64,000 bases of DNA from Phyllobacterium bourgognense (GTDB lineage Bacteria > Pseudomonadota > Alphaproteobacteria > Rhizobiales > Rhizobiaceae), in NCBI RefSeq assembly GCF_003337575.1, contig NZ_QPJM01000001.1:434001-498000 (forward strand). Direction: 5' to 3'. The position numbers and the translations under genes are program-made. The notes beneath the pieces are model-generated. The model made no database searches and was not told the DNA's origin. It saw nothing but the letters and a program-made list of their open reading frames with translations. Below, piece after piece: positions 39,289-55,241 of the stretch (its first letter is position 1; each line of letters opens with the position of its first letter).

Positions 39289-40716
39289 TCACACATTCAG
39301 CAGCAAAAACTCGCGCTCCCACGGGCTGATGACCTCCATGAAGGTCTCGAACTCGGCGCGTTTGATTGCGGCGTAGGTGATTGCGAAGGATTCGCCGAGC
39401 ATGGCCACCAGTTCCCTGTCCTGCTCGAACAGGATTGTCGCCTCGATCAACCCGCGCGGCAATTCAATCAGATTGTCGTTGACGGTCGTGGAGGCAGGTT
39501 CATCCGGCTCGATCTTGTTGTTCATGCCGATCAAGCCGCAGGCGAGCGATGCCGCCAGTGCCAGATACGGGTTGGCGTCGGAGGAGGGGATTCTGTTTTC
39601 GACACGCCGCGCCGCGGGGTCGGACCTCGGTACACGAAAGGCCGTGGTGCGGTTGTCATAGCCCCATTTGACATTGACAGGCGCAGAGGCCGCCGGTGTC
39701 AGCCGCCGGTAAGAATTCACATAAGGCGCAAACATCACGAGCGAGGCCGGGACGTGTTTCTGCATGCCGCCAATAAAATGCCGGAACGCCGGGCTTTCCG
39801 TTCCATCCGGGTTGGAGAACACGTTTCTGCCCGTCTTCTTGTCGATGATCGATTGATGGATATGCATCGCGGAACCCGGCTGGCCCTGTATAGGCTTCGC
39901 CATGAATGTCGCATACATGTCGTGCTTCAGTGCGGCTTCCCTGATCGTGCGTTTGAACAGGAACACCTGATCGGCAAGCTCGATAGGATCGCCGTGTCGC
40001 AAATTGATCTCCAGCTGCGCCGCGCCTTCCTCATGGATCAGCGTGTCGATCTCGAGGCCCTGACTTTCGGAGAAATGATAGATATCATCGATGAGTTCGT
40101 CGAACTCGTTGACGCCGGCGATTGAATAACCTTGTCCACCACCGATCGCCCGGCCCGAGCGTCCGACAGGCGGGGTCAGGGGATAATCCGGATCTGGGTT
40201 TTTCTTGACGAGGTAGAATTCGATTTCCGGCGCGACGACCGCCTTCAGGCCCTTCCTGGCATAAGCGGCCATGACGCGCTTCAGGACATTGCGCGGGGTA
40301 AATTCCACCGCTTCCCCGTCCTTGTTGACGAGATCACAAATGACCTGCGCTGTCGGATCGCTTTCCCACGGTACTTCCGAAAGCGTGGAGAGATCCGGCA
40401 TCAGCTTTAGGTCGCCGTCGTCTTCGGGATAAGAGAAGCCATGCCCATCTTCCGGATAGGAGCCGGAGATTGTCGCCATAAATACGGCGGAGGGCAGCGC
40501 CAGCGAGGTATTGGATGTGAATTTTTTCGACGGCATCATTTTGCCGCGCGCCACACCCGCCTGATCCGGGGTAATGCATTCGATGTCCTCGATATCCCGC
40601 CAGGCCAGCCACTCGGAAGCTTCACGCCAGTTCTTCACGCCGCGTGTGGCTTTGACATAGGCCGGCGTACGCCGCCGGGTCCGTGCGGGTTTTTTCTCGG
40701 GAGTTTCGGAGGGCAT
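39289..40716 (-). CDS. Glutamine synthetase-family ligase, glutamate-putrescine ligase-like
   Basis: 475 residues. Blocks of the GS fold: VAPEIEFYLVKKNPDPDYPL with metal-binding Glu, EEGAAQLEINLRHGDPIELA, GSAMHIHQSIIDKKTGRNVF, NSYRRLTPAASAPVNVKWGYDNR and RVENRIPSSDANPYLALAA. PuuA-type enzymes attach glutamate to putrescine. It is paired with a PuuB-like oxidase downstream, and a putrescine-type ABC importer lies at 55.4 kb, so polyamine catabolism is a fair inference; ligases for ethanolamine or other amines look alike. ATG 40716 is preferred to TTG 40719. Confidence 0.85.
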   Translation of the reverse strand: MPSETPEKKPARTRRRTPAYVKATRGVKNWREASEWLAWRDIEDIECITPDQAGVARGKMMPSKKFTSNTSLALPSAVFMATISGSYPEDGHGFSYPEDDGDLKLMPDLSTLSEVPWESDPTAQVICDLVNKDGEAVEFTPRNVLKRVMAAYARKGLKAVVAPEIEFYLVKKNPDPDYPLTPPVGRSGRAIGGGQGYSIAGVNEFDELIDDIYHFSESQGLEIDTLIHEEGAAQLEINLRHGDPIELADQVFLFKRTIREAALKHDMYATFMAKPIQGQPGSAMHIHQSIIDKKTGRNVFSNPDGTESPAFRHFIGGMQKHVPASLVMFAPYVNSYRRLTPAASAPVNVKWGYDNRTTAFRVPRSDPAARRVENRIPSSDANPYLALAASLACGLIGMNNKIEPDEPASTTVNDNLIELPRGLIEATILFEQDRELVAMLGESFAITYAAIKRAEFETFMEVISPWEREFLLLNV

Positions 40717-40752
40717 CAATCACCAGAATGAGTTGCGGTGACAAGATGATAA

Positions 40753-41085
40753 AGCAATTTCAGGAAAAGTGTGAAGCGGTTTTCCGTCCGGAATTGCGCA
40801 AAAACAAAAATCAGCAATTTCAGGAAAAGTGTGAAGCGGTTTTCCGTCCGGAATTGCGCAAAAACAAAAATCAGCAATTTCAGGAAAAGTGTGAAGCGGT
40901 TTTCTGTCCGGAATTGCGCAAAAACAAAAATCAGCAATTTCAGGAAAAGTGTGAAGCAGTTTTGCGTCCGGAATTGCGTAAAAACAAAAATCAGCAATTT
41001 CAGGAAAAGTGTGAAGCGGTTTTCCGTCCGGAATTGCGCAAAAACAAATCTAAAGCATTTTCGTGATTCGAAAGGAAAACGGAAA
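40753..41085. repeat. RIME-like array, five 60-bp tandem units plus terminal hairpin
   Basis: Units start at 40753, 40813, 40873, 40933 and 40993; each contains AGCAATTTCAGGAAAAGTGT and AGCGGTTTTCCGTCCGGAAT with few substitutions (TCTGTCC in unit 3, AGCAGTTTTGCG in unit 4). It ends with AAAGCATTTTCGTGATTCGA and the partner AAACGGAAAT. There are no spacers, so it is not a CRISPR array. It fills the gap between the ligase gene and the Crp/Fnr gene. Confidence 0.93.
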
Positions 41086-41115
41086 TCCTCCAGCGGAAAA
41101 GTTTGCAGCTAGGGA

Positions 41116-46951: not shown

Positions 46952-47581
46952 CTAGCCGGGAGGGCCGGTATACCCGACCGCATTGGGCCCGCCGTTCATC
47001 TCTCGAAGCTTGACGATGTATTGTTGCGGACGCAGCAAGTGGCCGGGTGCTTTGTATCCCATGGACCGCGCAATCTCGCCGACGAAGGCATTGCAGTTGA
47101 ACGTCGTTGCCTGCCAGAAACGCGATCTGGCTTGGAGTTTGCGTATGTAGGCGACGACTTTATTGTATTCGGCTTCGTTCAAGGTGACGCGCCAGGTTGC
47201 CGACCTGTACTTATCGTCCGTATCACCGTCGCTCTCACCGGTCTCGGCTGGTACGGGTATGTAATGGCCAAGAATATAGGGAACCACGCTGTTTGTAGCC
47301 GGGTGAAGACCGGCAACTTCGCGATCAACTATATTGCCCGCCTTGTCCAGACGCCCGAACATCACATAGGTATGGCCGTAGGTAAGGGCATAGCGCGAGC
47401 GAAACTCGATATAGTACCGCCCGTTTTTTTGCGCGGGTTGTTTTGTTGTCGCCGAAGTAACCTGAACGGCCGCAGTGCTGTCACTGATACCGGACACGGA
47501 ACCCGACTTGCTCTCATTGCTCGTTTGACATCCCGCCACTGCGAGCCCAAGCATGATCACAGACAAAAGACGAACACTCAT
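46952..47581 (-). CDS. Lipoprotein with NlpC/P60-like (papain-type) His...Cys pattern
   Basis: 209 residues. Lipobox VIMLGLAVAGC with Cys 18, a Ser/Thr-rich linker, then a domain starting NGRYYIEFRSRYALTYGHTY. His 70 (YGHTYVMFGRLD) and Cys 163 (TTFNCNAFVGEIARSMGYK) look like a permuted NlpC/P60 or LRAT-like pair. The same pattern (GHAAFIVIDENG and DRNCMKFVYDAANAAGLK) appears in the giant protein at 49851. It may cut or amidate a peptide or lipid in the envelope; activity is not shown. The start MSVRLLS at 47581 is chosen for the signal peptide. Confidence 0.75.
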   Translation of the reverse strand: MSVRLLSVIMLGLAVAGCQTSNESKSGSVSGISDSTAAVQVTSATTKQPAQKNGRYYIEFRSRYALTYGHTYVMFGRLDKAGNIVDREVAGLHPATNSVVPYILGHYIPVPAETGESDGDTDDKYRSATWRVTLNEAEYNKVVAYIRKLQARSRFWQATTFNCNAFVGEIARSMGYKAPGHLLRPQQYIVKLREMNGGPNAVGYTGPPG

Positions 47582-47662
47582 GAGCGTCATCCCATACCAG
47601 AATTCGTCAAAACGCAATCCTCAAGCCCGGCCATACCCGTTATAAATCATCGGGGGCCGCAC

Positions 47663-48161: not shown

Positions 48162-48758
48162 TTAGACGATCAATACCGGGGTTCCCAAAGGTGTGTTGTC
48201 ATAGAGATAAAGGATGTCCTCATTCGTCAGGCGAATGCACCCGTTCGATACGGCTTGTCCTATCAACCAGGGTTCATTTGTACCGTGCAGGCGAAAATAG
48301 GTGTCACGTCCGCCGCGGTAGAGATAAAGCGCCCGTGCACCGAGCGGGTTGTTTGGCCCGCCGGGGACTCCGCCGGCATATTGCGCCAAATGCGGCTTGC
48401 GCCTGATCATGCTTGCAGTGGGCGTCCAGGATGGCCATTGCTCCTTGCGCTCGATCGTCGCCCTGCCTTTGAGCGTCAATCCCTCTTCGCCGACCGCGAT
48501 ACCATAGCGCGTGGCCGACCCGTCCCGCTGGACCGCATAGAGGAAACGTTCATAGGTGTTGACGACGAGCGTCCCGGGCGCCTCGCTCCCTTGATACGCC
48601 ACCTCCTGCCGTCTCAGACGGGGATCCATGCCGCGTGGCACGGCAAAAGCAGATGAGATTGGTGAAAACGCCTCGCGCACTCCGGAACCGCATCCGGAGG
48701 TCATGAGTGCTATACTGCCCAACACGAGCCCCCGGCGCGTAATTTTATCAATTGTCAT
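48162..48758 (-). CDS. L,D-transpeptidase (YkuD family), probable lipoprotein
   Basis: 198 residues. The signal region is TRRGLVLGSIALMTSGC with a lipobox-like Cys, and the YkuD catalytic block is FRLHGTNEPWLIGQAVSNGC with IRLTNEDILYLYD; the nucleophile Cys lies in SNGCIRL. Such enzymes form 3-3 peptidoglycan cross-links or attach lipoproteins to peptidoglycan. The Arg pair before the hydrophobic core might also allow Tat export. ATG 48758 is preferred to TTG 48770. It neighbours two small lipoproteins, fitting an envelope-maintenance role. Confidence 0.93.
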   Translation of the reverse strand: MTIDKITRRGLVLGSIALMTSGCGSGVREAFSPISSAFAVPRGMDPRLRRQEVAYQGSEAPGTLVVNTYERFLYAVQRDGSATRYGIAVGEEGLTLKGRATIERKEQWPSWTPTASMIRRKPHLAQYAGGVPGGPNNPLGARALYLYRGGRDTYFRLHGTNEPWLIGQAVSNGCIRLTNEDILYLYDNTPLGTPVLIV

Positions 48759-49060
48759 TTGTTGCCCCAACCAGTCGACACATTCGCGGCCACCCTAACA
48801 TTGCAGGAGTGGCTGGCCAAGTCTTGTACGTCGCAGCGATCGACTATGAACAACTAGCTGGAATATCCGCTGATTATGCGCTGCAGGATCTGGAATTTCG
48901 GGACGGCAAGAGCCGAGAAACGAACTGATCGTGACACGCTGAGTGCATTTGATTTTAGCAGGTGCAACTCAGACGCACGTTGCGCGCGCTTCAACCAAGG
49001 TCGAATTGCAAGGGAAGTCTGCGCGTGTAATGAGCGCTGTGCAATCGATAGGAATCAGGA
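48759..49060. other. Intergenic stretch without clear features
   Basis: I see no convincing gene, repeat or RNA fold in these 302 bases. It must contain divergent promoters for the transpeptidase and the membrane protein at 49061, but no clear -35/-10 pair stands out. Confidence 0.35.
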
Positions 49061-49804
49061 ATGTCTCTTGCCACTTTGGCGATATGGCCAACGCTTGGGC
49101 GCAGCCTTGCAATTGTGTTTTGCACAGTGCTTTGGCCGTTAGCCGTTGCGACGGCACAGGATGTGGAAGCGGAGAGTGACTGGGAAGCCATTTGGAAAAA
49201 AACGACGGCGTTTCAACAATCCATCCAGGAAGCTGAAACGCGAGGGGATCATCGAGCGGCCGTCTCGTACGCGCGTGAATGCCATGAGTTGTGGGTGTCA
49301 ATAGGGCGGTTTTCGTCCCCGTATTGCACCTACTACTATGTTAATGCTTTGGCATTTGAAGGGGCAGTGTGTGGGGATCAAGATCGCGCTTTCCGGATTG
49401 TCGCCAAGATAGTCAGCATGAATTTTGACGATACATTCTCAATAGAGTTGACCCGGTTTTATCTGGACGGAATCGGCACTTTTCGAAACACAGTTGAAGC
49501 TACCGTGACGCTCTGGCGTTTCAGGAACGGAAAGATATCTGAAGCCTTTTCGTGCAAGAATGGTTGTGACGATCTTTGGCACGATGTTAAAGCGCTCGAG
49601 ACGCGCTTGGAAAAAGAGTTATCCAGGGAGGAAAAAGCCAAGGCAAGAACGCTGGAACGAGAGCGATTTCCGAGATTGTATTACGAAGTATTATTTTGGA
49701 ATATACTGTTTTTATCAACAAAATACTCCTTTATTGTACTTATATATTTGCTGGCATTTAAAATATTAAGAAGTATATTTTCCGCTATACGTTCATTTTT
49801 TTAA
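49061..49804 (+). CDS. Exported, C-terminally membrane-anchored Sel1/TPR-like protein
   Basis: 247 residues: N-terminal signal segment (SLAIVFCTVLWPLAVATA), a helical repeat region with RAAVSYARECHELWVSIG, DRAFRIVAKIVSMNFDD and FYLDGIGTFRNTVEATVTLW, the last resembling a Sel1 repeat, then a charged helix and a C-terminal hydrophobic segment (YSFIVLIYLLAFKILRSIF). Four Cys in the exported part may form disulfides. It ends 46 bases before the giant repeat protein on the same strand, so it may be a partner, anchor or immunity protein. More AT-rich than neighbours. The start is uncertain. Confidence 0.55.
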   Translation: MSLATLAIWPTLGRSLAIVFCTVLWPLAVATAQDVEAESDWEAIWKKTTAFQQSIQEAETRGDHRAAVSYARECHELWVSIGRFSSPYCTYYYVNALAFEGAVCGDQDRAFRIVAKIVSMNFDDTFSIELTRFYLDGIGTFRNTVEATVTLWRFRNGKISEAFSCKNGCDDLWHDVKALETRLEKELSREEKAKARTLERERFPRLYYEVLFWNILFLSTKYSFIVLIYLLAFKILRSIFSAIRSFF

Positions 49805-49850
49805 TGAGCACATGATGCGTAAATAATTGTCTAATAATTAGGATGTTTCG

Positions 49851-52800
49851 ATGGTAAAACAAATCCCCATTTTTATACCGGTAATACTTCCAAACTACAA
49901 CGTTGGTAGCGGTGGTAATCTTGAAGCGCCCATGCTGGGTCACGCCGCCTTCATTGTGATTGATGAGAATGGCAAGGCAACCTATCAGGAATTTGGACGC
50001 TATGATCCCAAAAAAGTCCAAGGGGTTGTGACCAACAACCAGAATGAATATACGGAAGGTAACATTCGGCAACACGCGATTGTTGCAAAACTTGAATTCG
50101 ATGACGCTGGGAATCTAACGGAAAGGTCTTTGACAGCAGCGCTTGACGAGGTGTTTGATACATCGGGTCTGTACAAAAATACGGATATCGGTGCGGCTCA
50201 GATTACACAATTCAAGATGAGCAAGGAACAAACCACCCAAATCAATACTTGGTTTGGAGAACAGAAAAAGCTGATCAACGATGGAATAACGCACTATTCG
50301 ATTTTTGATAGAAATTGCATGAAGTTCGTTTATGACGCGGCCAATGCTGCAGGCTTGAAGATCAGCAACGCACAAAATTTGACGGGCCTTTCCATCCCAA
50401 GCATTGGTGGAGCCAATATTCTTGAGGTGGCAAAAAAGGGCTACGAATACTATGCACCTAATTCATGGAATAAGATCCAGTTAACTGCACTGTCTGGACC
50501 TGGCAGCCAGACTGCCAGCTTCTTTATCGATCGTGCGTGGCAGGCCACGAAAGCCATGGCGGAGTGGGTTGGGGTTGATCTGGCTGTCGATCAGAAAGAT
50601 TTTTCCATCATTACGAACTCGATTACCGGGTTGCCCACGGCAATTGAGTTTAAAAACACTCTAGGCCGTTTGTTGCAGCGTACGTCAATCGAAAAAGACG
50701 GAACGCTGAAGAATGTGACTTTTGACGACCTCAGCACCAAAACCAGGGAAGCGCTGCTCAACCCCAATGGCAGTCTGATCACCGTTTCCACATTCAATCC
50801 CGCCGGTCTCAAAACATCCGAAAAGCAATTCAATCTGGATGGTTCACGCAACGAAACCAGTTTCGATCCGGTTTCCGGCGAGGCTACATACAAGACCCTT
50901 TTCAAGGCGGATGGAACGGCCACACAGACAACCTACGACATAGTCAACGTAAAGTCATGGAAGGAAGCCACAGCCGAGTATGGCAAGGACGGCAAGCTCG
51001 TCTCCGAAAAGGTTATCAACGACAACAATACCCGTATAGACAGAGTTTTTTTCCCCGGTACGACCAAAACCAATTTTAGCAAGGAGTATGACGCAGCAGG
51101 AAAATTGACGACGGAGACCACATATCGGGTGGACGGCACGCAGACCCGCAAGCTCCATGACGTGGAGAATAAAGGAGACTGGCGGGAAGCGACGATCGAC
51201 TATGACAAGAACGGCAACCGGATCCTTGAAAAGGCAGTCAATGACGATGGCAGCCGTTATGATCTGATCTATGATTCAAACGATGTTCCGAAATCCAAGA
51301 CAGTCTATAACCCGGCAGGGAAGGTAACGACGGTCACCACCAATAATTCCGACGGCACGCAAACGGAAACCGTCTATGACCCTGACAACAAGCAATCGTG
51401 GCGGGAAGCAACAGTTCAATATGGACGGGATGGCAATCCGGTTTCTGAAAAGGGGATCAATGACGATGGCAGCAAATACGATGCCACCTATCAACCGGGC
51501 ACATCCAAGGTCAATTCCTATGTGCTGACACGGGGCGACGGTACACAATCGAAGACAGTCTTCGATGCGGACAACCAGCAGGATTGGCGCGATGGTACTT
51601 TTGAATATGACAAGAACGGCAAGCTGATTTCGGAACAGGGCACCTTCGACGATGGTACCACTTACGACCAGAAATATGATCCCTTGACGGGGAAGATGAC
51701 GGCGAGGACCGATTACAATCCCACGGGCAATGTGACTTCGATCAGGTCAGTCAAGACAGATGGATCGGAAACCAAGACGGTTTTTGATCCTGAAAATAAA
51801 GAGGCTTGGAAAGAGGCCACTATTGAATACCGCAAAGACGGAAGTCTGGTTTCCGAAAAAGGATTGAATGATAACGGCACCCGCTATGATTTGACTTTCG
51901 ACAAGGATACGGGCGAGGTTAACCGGCGGTTTGACTACAACCAAGCCGGCCAGAAAGTTTCCGATACTGTTTTCAAGATCGATGGAACGCAGACCAAAAC
52001 GGTGTTCGATCCAGACAATCAACAGGATTGGCGCGAAGATACTTTTGAATACGACAAGAACGGCAAGCTGATATCGGAAAAGGGTACCTTCGACGATGGC
52101 GAGAAATACGACCAGAAATATGATCCCTTGACGGGGAAGATGACATCTAGAACTGACTACAATCCGGCAGGGAATGTGACTTCGATCAGGTCAGTCAGGG
52201 CTGACGGAGCGGAAACCAAGACGGTTTTTGATCCAGACAATAAACAGACCTGGAAAGAGGCCACCATTGAATATCGTAAAGATGGAAGTCTGATCTCCGA
52301 AAAAGGGTTGAACGATAATGGCACCCGCTATGATTTGACCTTCGATAAAGATACGGGTGAGGTTAATCGGCGGCAGGAATACAATCAGGCAGGTCAGACA
52401 ACGTCCACTACCACTTTTAAAGTGGATGGCACCCAGTCGCGACTTTTCTATGATGTTGGGAACAAGCAGGGCTGGCGTGAAGCCACAGTCGAATTCGACA
52501 AGAACGGCAGGTTGGTTTCGGAAAAAGGCGTCATCGACGATGGAACCCGTTACGATGTGAAATACGATCCAAATACAAACAAGATGACGGCAAGAACAGA
52601 TTATAATCTGGGAGGGCAGGTCAGTTCGGCTACTTCGGTCAATGCGGATGGCTCGCGGACGAGGACTTTTTACGATCCCGCCAATGCTGCTGGCTGGAAA
52701 GAGGTTGCCGTTCGGTATGACAAGAACGGGAAGGCAATCTGGGAGAAGGGTACTATTGACGATGGCAGCCGGTACGATGTGGCGTATGATTCGACCACTG

Positions 52801-54173
52801 GCAAGGTAACAGCGAGAACAGACTATAATCCTGCAGGTCAGGTAACCTCGATTACTGCTGTTCATGCGGATGGATCGCAAACCGTAACGATGTACGACCC
52901 TGAAAATAAAAGCAATTTACAGAAAGCGGTTATTGAATATGACAAGTATGGTGATCCTGTATCGGAAATAGGGACACTCGATGATGGAACGCGCTATGAA
53001 AGTACGTATGACTTCCGGGGGGTAAAGACAGAGAAGGTTATATATCCCGATGGGACGGCATCGGAGAAAGAGTTTATGGGGGGGAAAATCTGGAAATACA
53101 CCGAACAAGATCTTGGTAATCATCAAGGATGGGCGCAAATCGAAGAAACATACTATTCTGATGGCAAGAAATGGTCAGAAGAACGCATCATGGACAATGG
53201 AGACATCTACCAATTTGGCTATGACATGAAAACTGGTGAAGCAACGTCGGCAAGCTGGACCCACAATGGAGTAAAGCGGTTTGGCGAACTGAACAAGAAA
53301 AAGAACAGTTTTGTTTTCAAGACTGGCGGCGGTGGGGGAGATGGCGGCGGGTTCTGGAGCCAGGTCTTTGACTTCGTTTCGAGCATAGTTCGGCCGTGGT
53401 CGTCATGGTCGAGCACGATTGGCGGTGACTCTTCAAGCAACCCCAAATCCCGTCCCCCTGTGTTTGATATCACAAAACATCTCGATGATTGCCCTTACTA
53501 TAATAATCCGCACCCCTCCAATCATACTGAAGACCCCGATGGGACCATTCATCTGAATACCATTGTTATTTATGGCAGTCATCCCGTCCTCCTCGACCTA
53601 AACAACGACAACACTCTCGATGTACGCCTGCTCGAGCGCATGGACCTTGCCGATATTTCCACCCCACGCTTCGATTGGAATTCCGATGGCACGCCAGACC
53701 GCACGGCTTGGGTTGGTCCTGATGATGGCTTGCTGGTGATCGATCTCGCCAAAGACGGTGCCGCCGGTCCTGACGGCAAGATCGACCAGGCCCGCGAAAT
53801 CGCTTTCGCGTTGTGGAAGACCGAAAAGGAAATCGACAGCGAGAACGTCACCGATCTCGAAGGCCTGCGTTATGCCTTCGATACCAATCACGACAACATG
53901 CTGGATCAGAACGATGCCCGATGGAATGAGTTCCGTGTCTGGCAGGATACCAACCAGAACGGCATCAGCGAGGATGGCGAGTTGATGACCATGAGCGATG
54001 CGGGCATCAAGCTGATCAATCTTCTCCCGGACCCGAAGGGCGCAAAGCAGTTTGCCGACGGCTCGGCGATCACCGGTACGACGACGGCGCTGATGACCGA
54101 TGGAACGACAATGCTTGTCGGCGATGTCAGCCTGCGGTTCCAGCCTTTCGGTCATTCGCATCATATGGTGTGA
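49851..54173 (+). CDS. Giant 1440-residue protein: NlpC/P60-like domain, ten 74-residue repeats, C-terminal EF-hand-like module
   Basis: Residues 1-190 contain His 31 (MLGHAAFIVIDENG) and Cys 156 (DRNCMKFVYDAANAAG), a permuted NlpC/P60 or LRAT-like pattern. Residues about 353-1070 hold ten tandem units of about 74 residues, each like DGTQTKTVFDPDNQQDWRE, EYDKNGKLISEKG, DDGTRYD and RTDYNPAGNVTS. They resemble YD/MORN-type repeats but are longer. A Gly-rich linker (TGGGGGDGGGF) follows near 1157. Residues about 1243-1390 have four Asp-rich loops (DLNNDNTLD, DWNSDGTPD, DTNHDNMLD, DTNQNGISEDGE) as in calcium-binding modules of RTX proteins. No signal peptide; export route unknown. Units 4-5 are duplicated as 6-7. 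Confidence 0.8.
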   Translation: MVKQIPIFIPVILPNYNVGSGGNLEAPMLGHAAFIVIDENGKATYQEFGRYDPKKVQGVVTNNQNEYTEGNIRQHAIVAKLEFDDAGNLTERSLTAALDEVFDTSGLYKNTDIGAAQITQFKMSKEQTTQINTWFGEQKKLINDGITHYSIFDRNCMKFVYDAANAAGLKISNAQNLTGLSIPSIGGANILEVAKKGYEYYAPNSWNKIQLTALSGPGSQTASFFIDRAWQATKAMAEWVGVDLAVDQKDFSIITNSITGLPTAIEFKNTLGRLLQRTSIEKDGTLKNVTFDDLSTKTREALLNPNGSLITVSTFNPAGLKTSEKQFNLDGSRNETSFDPVSGEATYKTLFKADGTATQTTYDIVNVKSWKEATAEYGKDGKLVSEKVINDNNTRIDRVFFPGTTKTNFSKEYDAAGKLTTETTYRVDGTQTRKLHDVENKGDWREATIDYDKNGNRILEKAVNDDGSRYDLIYDSNDVPKSKTVYNPAGKVTTVTTNNSDGTQTETVYDPDNKQSWREATVQYGRDGNPVSEKGINDDGSKYDATYQPGTSKVNSYVLTRGDGTQSKTVFDADNQQDWRDGTFEYDKNGKLISEQGTFDDGTTYDQKYDPLTGKMTARTDYNPTGNVTSIRSVKTDGSETKTVFDPENKEAWKEATIEYRKDGSLVSEKGLNDNGTRYDLTFDKDTGEVNRRFDYNQAGQKVSDTVFKIDGTQTKTVFDPDNQQDWREDTFEYDKNGKLISEKGTFDDGEKYDQKYDPLTGKMTSRTDYNPAGNVTSIRSVRADGAETKTVFDPDNKQTWKEATIEYRKDGSLISEKGLNDNGTRYDLTFDKDTGEVNRRQEYNQAGQTTSTTTFKVDGTQSRLFYDVGNKQGWREATVEFDKNGRLVSEKGVIDDGTRYDVKYDPNTNKMTARTDYNLGGQVSSATSVNADGSRTRTFYDPANAAGWKEVAVRYDKNGKAIWEKGTIDDGSRYDVAYDSTTGKVTARTDYNPAGQVTSITAVHADGSQTVTMYDPENKSNLQKAVIEYDKYGDPVSEIGTLDDGTRYESTYDFRGVKTEKVIYPDGTASEKEFMGGKIWKYTEQDLGNHQGWAQIEETYYSDGKKWSEERIMDNGDIYQFGYDMKTGEATSASWTHNGVKRFGELNKKKNSFVFKTGGGGGDGGGFWSQVFDFVSSIVRPWSSWSSTIGGDSSSNPKSRPPVFDITKHLDDCPYYNNPHPSNHTEDPDGTIHLNTIVIYGSHPVLLDLNNDNTLDVRLLERMDLADISTPRFDWNSDGTPDRTAWVGPDDGLLVIDLAKDGAAGPDGKIDQAREIAFALWKTEKEIDSENVTDLEGLRYAFDTNHDNMLDQNDARWNEFRVWQDTNQNGISEDGELMTMSDAGIKLINLLPDPKGAKQFADGSAITGTTTALMTDGTTMLVGDVSLRFQPFGHSHHMV
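51537..52424 (+). repeat. 444-bp direct duplication inside the giant gene
   Basis: Bases 51537-51980 and 51981-52424 are two copies of a two-unit block. Long identical runs such as ACCAGAAATATGATCCCTTG and ACTTCGATCAGGTCAGTCA appear at the same offset in both, giving a period of 148 residues. This marks recent intragenic expansion. Confidence 0.8.
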
Positions 54174-54299
54174 TCTCGCAAAGACGAGGGACGACAATTG
54201 CCGCCCCTTGCCAACCTGCTGCCAACATGCCGTTAAACCGACAATCAACAGTCGTTTTCCAGACTCAACCTTTGCCACAAGCTTGGCATTGTCGCGTGC

Positions 54300-55241
54300 A
54301 TGAGTATCTCCGCCGTGCCCCTGCCGCCCGTCACCGGGCCTGACCCAGCCAAGAGCTCTTCGGAGGCTATGATCGGCTGTCTGCTGGTGGCGGGTGCCGC
54401 GATCGCGTGGAGCACCGGCGGCGCTCTCACGCGCTTCGTCGAAGCCAATGACAACTGGACGATCGTCTTCTGGCGCTCGGTCTTCGCCGCGCTGTTTCTC
54501 CTCTGCTTCATGCTGGTGCGCGACGGGCCGCGCGGCACATGGCGGCTGTTTCAGCATATGGGACTGGCCGGCCTCGGCGTCGCCATTTGCTTCGCCATCG
54601 CCTCATCCTGCTTCATCATCGCGCTGTCCTATACGACGGTCGCCAATGTGCTCCTGCTGCAGGCGGGTGTTCCGCTCTTTGCGGCTTTGATCTCGTGGAT
54701 ATTGTTCCGCGAGCGCATCAGTTCCGCCACATGGATCGCCATTGCCGTGGTCATTGCCGGCGTTGCCATCATGGTGTCGGATTCACTTGACGGGGAGGTT
54801 TCGCCCATCGGCGATATGCTGGCGCTGTTGATTGCCATCTCGTTCGCCATCGCCACCGTCATAACCCGCCGCAAGGCGCATCTGCGCATGACGCCGGCGG
54901 TTTTTCTCGGCGTGGTCATTGCCGCCTGCGTGGCCTCGACGATGGCCGGCCAGTTCAGCACGAGCGTGCGCGATTTCGGCCTGCTCTTTGCACTCGGCGC
55001 GGTCAATCTCGGCCTCGGCCTCGCGTTCTTCGTCAGCGGCGCGCGGCTCATTCCCTCGGCGCTGGCCGCGCTGATCAGCACGCTCGAACCTGTGCTCGGC
55101 CCGGTCTGGGTCTGGCTCCTGCACAACGAGGTCCCGGCTCCGCGCACGATCATCGGCGGCGCCATCATTCTCGCCGCACTGCTCATGCATCTCGGCTGGG
55201 AATATCGGCGTCAAAAACGCGTGGCGGCGGTCGTCCGCTAG
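54300..55241 (+). CDS. EamA/DMT-superfamily transporter
   Basis: 313 residues with ten hydrophobic helices in two EamA halves: GCLLVAGAAIAWSTGGALTR and WRSVFAALFLLCFMLV in the first, GVVIAACVASTMAG, GAVNLGLGLAFFVSGARL and ISTLEPVLGPVWVWLLHNE in the second. The PxxGPVWxxL-like end of helix 9 is typical of the family. It exports or imports a metabolite; substrate unknown. It lies 127 bases after the giant gene, and a stable inverted repeat follows its stop. Confidence 0.9.
   Translation: MSISAVPLPPVTGPDPAKSSSEAMIGCLLVAGAAIAWSTGGALTRFVEANDNWTIVFWRSVFAALFLLCFMLVRDGPRGTWRLFQHMGLAGLGVAICFAIASSCFIIALSYTTVANVLLLQAGVPLFAALISWILFRERISSATWIAIAVVIAGVAIMVSDSLDGEVSPIGDMLALLIAISFAIATVITRRKAHLRMTPAVFLGVVIAACVASTMAGQFSTSVRDFGLLFALGAVNLGLGLAFFVSGARLIPSALAALISTLEPVLGPVWVWLLHNEVPAPRTIIGGAIILAALLMHLGWEYRRQKRVAAVVR

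Follow-up and report, generated by a model that had tools for sequence, protein, structure and literature searches.

The gene described here lies on the forward strand of a 64,000-nucleotide stretch of the genome of Phyllobacterium bourgognense, a bacterium associated with plants and soil (contig NZ_QPJM01000001.1, positions 434,001 to 498,000), referred to below as the window. It is an intact open reading frame (ORF; 49851..54173, +, exact coordinates) encoding a candidate effector of 1440 amino acids (aa), in which an N-terminal enzymatic head, a tandem repeat stalk and a C-terminal calcium-type domain could be distinguished. It is preceded, at a distance of 46 bp, by a second gene on the same strand (49061..49804, +; 247 aa), a candidate immunity gene. 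Related loci and genomes are cited below by their L and G numbers, G000 being the genome of the window.

The head contains a putative TseH-type cysteine-hydrolase core (residues 26-164; 49926..50342, +), in which His31 (codon 49941-49943, +) is placed within the sequence LGHAAF and Cys156 (codon 50316-50318, +) within DRNCMKFV. The Pfam model TseH (PF25218) matches residues 26-164 (E 8.7e-11; 42.4 bits, cut-off 27), and TseH of Vibrio cholerae (PDB 6v98) aligns with residues 24-170 (phmmer E 4.3e-6) such that the His and Cys motifs of the two coincide. The His-before-Cys pair therefore occupies conserved TseH motifs (LGHAAF with His31 and NCM with Cys156, as aligned with 6v98), and a catalytic role of both residues is predicted. 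The pair is retained in the only other copy of the head found (locus L047/L005 of genome G014), which is 69% identical to that of the window. According to the excerpts of the published work on which all our citations draw, TseH belongs to the permuted NlpC/P60 group, and it displayed phospholipase activity in a liposome assay at pH 8.9 and none in a mass-spectrometry assay (PMC12994826). The initial annotation, made from the DNA letters alone, had placed His31 and Cys156 in NlpC/P60-like contexts of a papain-like head; the motif alignment bears out the former, and the latter appears to be right in kind, given the TseH match. No signal peptide was seen in the 1440-aa protein, as judged by eye without a predictor. 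The head was present in two of 149 relatives (genomes G000 and G014), PF25218 was found in one of 385 genomes of the class, and a tblastn search of plasmids with the head as query gave no match. A wide spread of the head was rejected on these counts. A phage origin was also rejected, since the sole phage record matches the C-terminal part only and the viral contigs contain no relative of the head.

The stalk is composed of ten tandem, YD/RHS-derived units (residues 358-1085; 50922..53105, +), nine of which comprise 74 aa and one 62 aa. The identity at lag 74 is 0.34, compared with a mean of 0.07 and a maximum of 0.10 in 2000 shuffles. Ten units of 74 residues unlike YD repeats had been reported initially. 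The number holds and the length applies to nine of the units, while the supposed unlikeness is contradicted by matches over the cut-offs of RHS_repeat (1.3e-5), DUF2963 (2.1e-10) and the YD-repeat model TIGR01643 (7.5e-6); 74 aa is thus a higher-order period. Units 4-5 and 6-7 are 84-85% identical, this 148-aa pair having been duplicated recently. A search of the PDB with the repeats as query revealed no match.

The C-terminal part (residues 1245-1430; 53583..54140, +) constitutes an EF-hand-type calcium domain similar to the self-processing module (SPM) of FrpC, as indicated by structure 6sjw, profile and alignment. FrpC SPM (6sjw) matches residues 1261-1429 (E 9.7e-16), while a profile built from six relatives matches FrpC SPM with E 5.6e-22. 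Asp-rich loops, of which four of calcium type had been reported initially near the C-terminus, were found near residues 1248, 1275, 1298, 1344 and 1366, i.e. inside this domain, for which Ca2+ binding is predicted by homology. The domain is homologous to the SPM of FrpC/ApxIVA over nearly its whole length, and the Ca2+ loops as well as two Trp positions coincide in the alignment. The mechanism of FrpC SPM involves cleavage at an Asp-Pro bond (PMC7078468). In contrast, the window protein carries His-Pro at this site, on the N-terminal edge of the domain, and among relatives (described below) Asp-Pro, scored by motif, occurs in two of 38 C-terminal and none of 24 internal SPM-like copies, being missing from the other 36 and from all 24, respectively. 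Self-cleavage that would free the head was rejected, because Asp-Pro is absent from the window protein and from nearly all relatives, and the single SPM copy of the window protein is C-terminal. No array of RTX nonapeptides (GGxGxDxUx) was found in the window protein, which contains a single GGxGxD match; three or more such matches were present in two of 40 related ORFs (L080 and L070). Since both Asp-Pro and the nonapeptides are lacking, we classified the protein neither as a self-processing SPM protein nor as an RTX protein. The module had initially been assigned to the type found in RTX proteins exported by type I systems; the type I link is supported by the HlyB-type genes that follow in relatives.

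The product of the upstream gene contains two transmembrane (TM)-like stretches (residues 12-30 and 215-233) with a soluble part between them, as found by a simple hydropathy scan. Among 20 genomes of the same genus the gene was found in two, G000 and G014, which are the same two that hold the head; in G014 it forms two tandem copies within one 517-aa ORF. Both genes are located on contig C1 of the 5.6-Mb genome, between genes encoding an L,D-transpeptidase and a DMT transporter. The transporter gene was found in 17 of the 20 genomes, and in all 15 of those other than G000 and G014 neither cassette gene lies between the flanking genes. In four of these 15 sister genomes the transpeptidase and transporter genes are 227-253 bp apart; the remaining 11 gave no transpeptidase match there, and in one case (L096) other genes are placed between. 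When the transpeptidase-transporter interval of L090, one of the four, was compared by blastn, it matched window positions 48642-48882 and 54228-54429, plus one 12-base match (E 0.36); the same interval of L092, another of the four, matched 48636-48864 and 54228-54424. These comparisons give the approximate extent of the inserted two-gene cassette as 48883..54227 (no strand assigned). The upstream gene and the head both have a G+C content of 0.458; that of the repeats is 0.49 and that of the SPM part 0.57, and the flanking genes have values of 0.588 and 0.646. A scan of the region for promoters and terminators produced matches at or below chance.

Close to the L,D-transpeptidase gene (48162-48770; YkuD, 3.7e-25) lies a lipoprotein-like ORF (46952-47617, -) without a Pfam hit of its own, containing the motifs YGHTYVMFGR and FNCNAFVGEI in the order seen in permuted NlpC/P60 enzymes. 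It is placed outside the insert, because it is present in four sister genomes that lack the cassette.

Using the C-terminal domain, we collected 41 distinct loci from genome contigs, genomes of the family and plasmids. These represent the closer relatives and no random sample, and the plasmid part comprises the top 15 of 46 records matching the C-terminus. Omitted were minor matches at the same places, duplicate records (L005, L025-L028, L063, L064, L068 and L069), L029 (30% identity), and L061 and L062 (no cargo), and G718 was not included. The hosts are mostly Rhizobium, Phyllobacterium, Agrobacterium, Sinorhizobium/Ensifer and their relatives. A cargo ORF (the longest reading frame; 391 to 3453 aa) was obtained from 40 loci, with none at the match in L060. 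In 24 of the 40 the SPM-like domain is encoded twice, behind the N-terminal head and again at the C-terminus, a doubling that further distinguishes the family from FrpC.

An HlyB-type ABC gene is located 3′ of the cargo, on the same strand and 59-1359 bp away, in 32 of the 41 loci, and in 31 of these it is accompanied by an HlyD match. The nine others include L051, L052 and L070, with fewer than 250 bases beyond the cargo ORF, and L060, with no cargo ORF; in the remaining five (the window, L047, L042, L057 and L071) no such gene was found in the available bases. The window genome encodes an HlyB/HlyD pair on contig C13, the products of which are 83% and 70% identical to those of relatives and score over the NCBIfam cut-offs (type_I_sec_HlyB, 927 bits; type_I_hlyD, 356 bits); the cargo C-terminus is absent from 20 kb around this pair. 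In G014 and G001 the ABC gene likewise occupies contigs other than those of the cargo. In a set of 394 genomes of the family, the cargo C-terminus was detected in 13 (E 1e-30) and an ABC gene of at least 67% identity in 14. The latter was present in 11 of the 13 cargo genomes vs 3 of 381 others (Fisher p 3.6e-17, kinship ignored). With a looser limit (E 1e-180) the counts were 12 of 13 and 15 of 381 (p 8.8e-15, kinship again ignored).

Three further observations concern this family. A 77-aa stretch on contig C11 of G000 (L062; 131878-132108), away from the intact pair, shares 90% identity with the C-terminal end of the HlyD partner and may be what is left of a second locus. In P. zundukense A18/3m, the cargo (L079:4959-12603) is annotated as two overlapping coding sequences, reflecting either a frameshift or a natural split. 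An Agrobacterium plasmid carries two genes 3′ of HlyB/HlyD in the opposite orientation (L076:16474-23147), one for a 'pre-toxin TG domain' protein and the other for an ankyrin-repeat protein, which are perhaps a further toxin/immunity pair.

For the analysis of heads, seven loci in which the ORF was cut, split or without its own N-terminus (L049, L051, L052, L057, L059, L079 and L086) and the distant forms L070 (47% identity) and L071 (42%) were excluded, leaving 31 heads, 29 of them with an upstream ORF. Heads were regarded as shared if a phmmer match started in the first 100 residues. Among the 29 loci, phmmer revealed 17 head-sharing and 11 upstream-sharing pairs, 10 of which coincide. None of 20,000 label shuffles, in which relatedness among the loci is ignored, reached 10 coincident pairs (mean 0.45, maximum 5). 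The C-terminal identity of head-sharing pairs has a median of 0.64 (0.54-0.84), while that of other pairs is 0.58, with a maximum of 0.94. None of the ten closest C-terminal pairs out of 406 (84-94% identity) passes the head-sharing test, so the match between heads and upstream genes is not explained by C-terminal similarity. One of these ten, L081/L085, has heads that are remotely alike (26.5% over 215 aa). Conversely, L042, L065 and L083 have head and upstream gene in common at 54% C-terminal identity. Sliding identity in six chosen pairs is low over the head and higher, with some dips, over the body, e.g. L041/L080 (at most 0.38 up to residue 500, then 0.97) and L056/L058 (dips to 0.36-0.46 near 2400-2500).

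Few of the heads could be assigned to known families. In 22 of the 25 scanned, a Pfam match over the cut-off was lacking. The nuclease domain AHH was found in the head of L083 (4.9e-6, over cut-off) and of L042 (0.0078, below cut-off), and the part that L083 has in common with L042 corresponds to approximately its first 75 residues, where AHH lies. HINT-type matches were identified in six of 25 heads, over the Pfam cut-off in one (L078), and two of these proteins bear the annotation 'Hint domain-containing'. The domain starts after approx. 165-200 residues in five of the six heads; in L078 only approx. 45 residues precede it, so the tip may be lost and this head is perhaps a decayed one. HINT is found ahead of the C-terminal toxin in classical polymorphic toxins, whereas here it lies behind the tip, so that the order is reversed. 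The immunity family Imm11 was detected upstream of both L083 (7.7e-28) and L042 (4.5e-54), i.e. in two of 23 upstream ORFs scanned, and is listed alongside Tox-AHH (PMC3482391). These Imm11 proteins have no TM-like stretch by the hydropathy scan, compared with two in the upstream protein of the window; in the clearest cases (AHH/Imm11 and TseH-type) the predicted location of the antidote thus fits the type of head.

These observations point to a swappable domain on a conserved trafficking part and an adjacent gene co-inherited with that domain, as in polymorphic toxins, with the toxin nature of the heads being putative (known families in few) and neutralization predicted. We consider that genes 49061-49804 and 49851-54173 probably form a cassette of immunity and effector genes, belonging to a family of polymorphic toxins that use an HlyB/HlyD-type type I secretion system (T1SS) for export, the toxicity, export and immunity of the pair being putative. 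The observed basis comprises the domain homologies, the co-inheritance of heads and upstream genes, the conserved 3′ part, the linkage and co-occurrence with T1SS genes, the absence of the cassette from this site in sister genomes and the lack of a type VI sheath hit. The initial reading as an exported adhesin or effector with a cysteine-hydrolase head is supported, and an effector is favoured over an adhesin; what it had overlooked is the probable immunity gene upstream, the swapping of heads and the missing cleavage residue of SPM.

Several results weigh against this interpretation. Upstream ORFs were selected by a mechanical rule (the longest ORF within a band); that of L078 (3926-4738) is transposase-like by eye, and that of L045 is cut by the end of the locus. 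The shuffles and Fisher's test take no account of relatedness among loci. The 11th upstream-sharing pair (Sel1 repeats, L045/L075) has unrelated heads, and seven of the 17 head-sharing pairs show no detectable upstream homology, four within L050/L054/L056/L085 (whose upstream proteins contain three to five TM-like stretches) and three within L058/L073/L080. For two of the 31 heads, L053 and L082, no upstream ORF of at least 60 aa was found in the band searched, and for this head type the immunity gene may be located elsewhere or there may be none. A nuclease match over the Pfam cut-off was obtained for one of 25 heads, and 18 of 23 upstream ORFs gave no Pfam match at E 0.05, including that of the window, the product of which shows no known Pfam family. 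Finally, the T1SS is unlinked to the cargo in the window genome, G014 and G001; cargo genomes G681 and G778 have no ABC gene of at least 67% identity, and G015, G768 and G821 have a close ABC gene with no cargo detected. As a separate observation, the heads of L053 and L082 are related to each other (52% over 106 aa).

In the proposed mechanism of the cassette, (i) the first gene would yield a membrane-anchored immunity protein; (ii) the type I system encoded on C13 would export the unfolded effector C-terminus first, as suggested by linkage in relatives and by co-occurrence; (iii) the SPM-like domain would bind Ca2+ and fold outside the cell, the YD-type repeats would then form a stalk and the head would leave last, by analogy with the known export of FrpC and RTX proteins; (iv) the head, judging from TseH, would attack envelope lipids or peptidoglycan of neighbours; and (v) the immunity protein, in view of its topology and co-inheritance, would block heads reaching the periplasm of kin. 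Because export would proceed C-terminus first, the tip leaving last could stay surface-held until contact. With slightly better than even confidence, we propose that the family represents a distinct class of interbacterial weapons of Alphaproteobacteria, i.e. polymorphic toxins dedicated to an HlyB-type exporter, with a tip held at the surface until contact and SPM-derived domains serving as Ca2+ folding clamps and not as proteases. The general architecture would be [immunity gene]-[N-terminal toxin tip]-[optional HINT-type domain]-[internal SPM-like domain]-[repeat stalk]-[C-terminal SPM-like domain]-[HlyB]-[HlyD], and the form found in the window would be compact and mobile, a cassette relying in trans on a T1SS to which it is not linked.

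The protein might instead be secreted by the type I route to serve as a surface adhesin or a matrix protein, its head being enzymatic. The upstream gene would then encode an accessory factor with a role in retention or processing or as a chaperone, and not an immunity protein. Adhesins are common among giant repeat proteins that have Ca2+ modules and are encoded next to T1SS genes, and the L075 relative is annotated 'adhesin'. The clip-and-link activity of FrpC has also been proposed to serve adhesion (PMC7078468). A common accessory factor would be expected family-wide, yet the upstream genes track the heads, and two of them are Imm11 beside AHH-type heads; we therefore regard an adhesin as unlikely. 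Less likely still is an effector directed against a eukaryotic host (a plant) or against a predator, which the plant association of many family hosts would suit, as would the fact that T1SS proteins often act on eukaryotes. What points to bacterial targets is the inheritance of immunity-like genes with the heads, together with the AHH/Imm11 pairs, and the candidate immunity protein has predicted membrane anchors.

Membership of the head in the TseH family also raises the question of type VI secretion system (T6SS) delivery, which is a property of V. cholerae TseH and not of the domain. The sheath model PF05943 (VipB) had no match in the window genome, which is 96.5% complete, and T6SS delivery was rejected on this absence. 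With T1SS genes linked to the cargo in relatives, a type VI effector is very improbable.

Comparison with known systems places the present family as a variant of polymorphic toxin systems. The head of the window protein shares the His and Cys motifs of the T6SS effector TseH, but is the N-terminal part of a protein of 1440 aa that also comprises repeats and an SPM-like C-terminal domain, and the genome encoding it gave no T6SS sheath hit. Swappable toxin domains, Imm11, HINT-type domains and YD-type repeats are features that the family has in common with classical polymorphic toxins (CdiA, Rhs, MafB and LXG; PMC3482391). The classical toxins carry the toxin domain at the C-terminus and the immunity gene 3′, whereas the predicted layout here is their mirror image, with the variable tip N-terminal, the immunity-like gene 5′, and the conserved export and display part, followed by the HlyB-type T1SS genes, at the 3′ side. 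The nearest known systems, as far as the cited excerpts extend, are Cdz and the Min-Wnt/RTX-like fusions. The Cdz system of Caulobacter (PMC5380434) is likewise alphaproteobacterial, with a type I-exported antibacterial toxin and a membrane immunity protein; its toxins are glycine-zipper proteins of 84-86 aa and not giant modular ones. Min-Wnt lipocone domains, placed N-terminal to RTX-like repeats (PMC12419801), similarly represent an N-terminal toxin domain on a presumed T1SS substrate. They differ in toxin and repeats, and the excerpts of that paper contain no mention of SPM modules or an upstream immunity gene. No description of the present family was found in the literature, the search covering open-licence papers, which is weak evidence of absence.

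Elsewhere in the window, short ORFs of a tandem repeat (QQFQEKCEAVFRPELRKNKN) are present at 40683-41112, beside a glutamine synthetase-like gene; these are probably repeat DNA.

Type I delivery of antibacterial toxins has so far been credited, in the excerpts cited, to the small Cdz glycine-zipper proteins, together with the Min-Wnt prediction. If our interpretation is correct, the family would constitute a new delivery route for polymorphic toxins in rhizobia and their relatives, and would provide a search rule by which new families of toxins and of immunity proteins could be found, through inspection of the N-termini and 5′ genes next to HlyB/HlyD. It would also assign a testable role to non-cleaving SPM domains, and may bear on competition among rhizobia.

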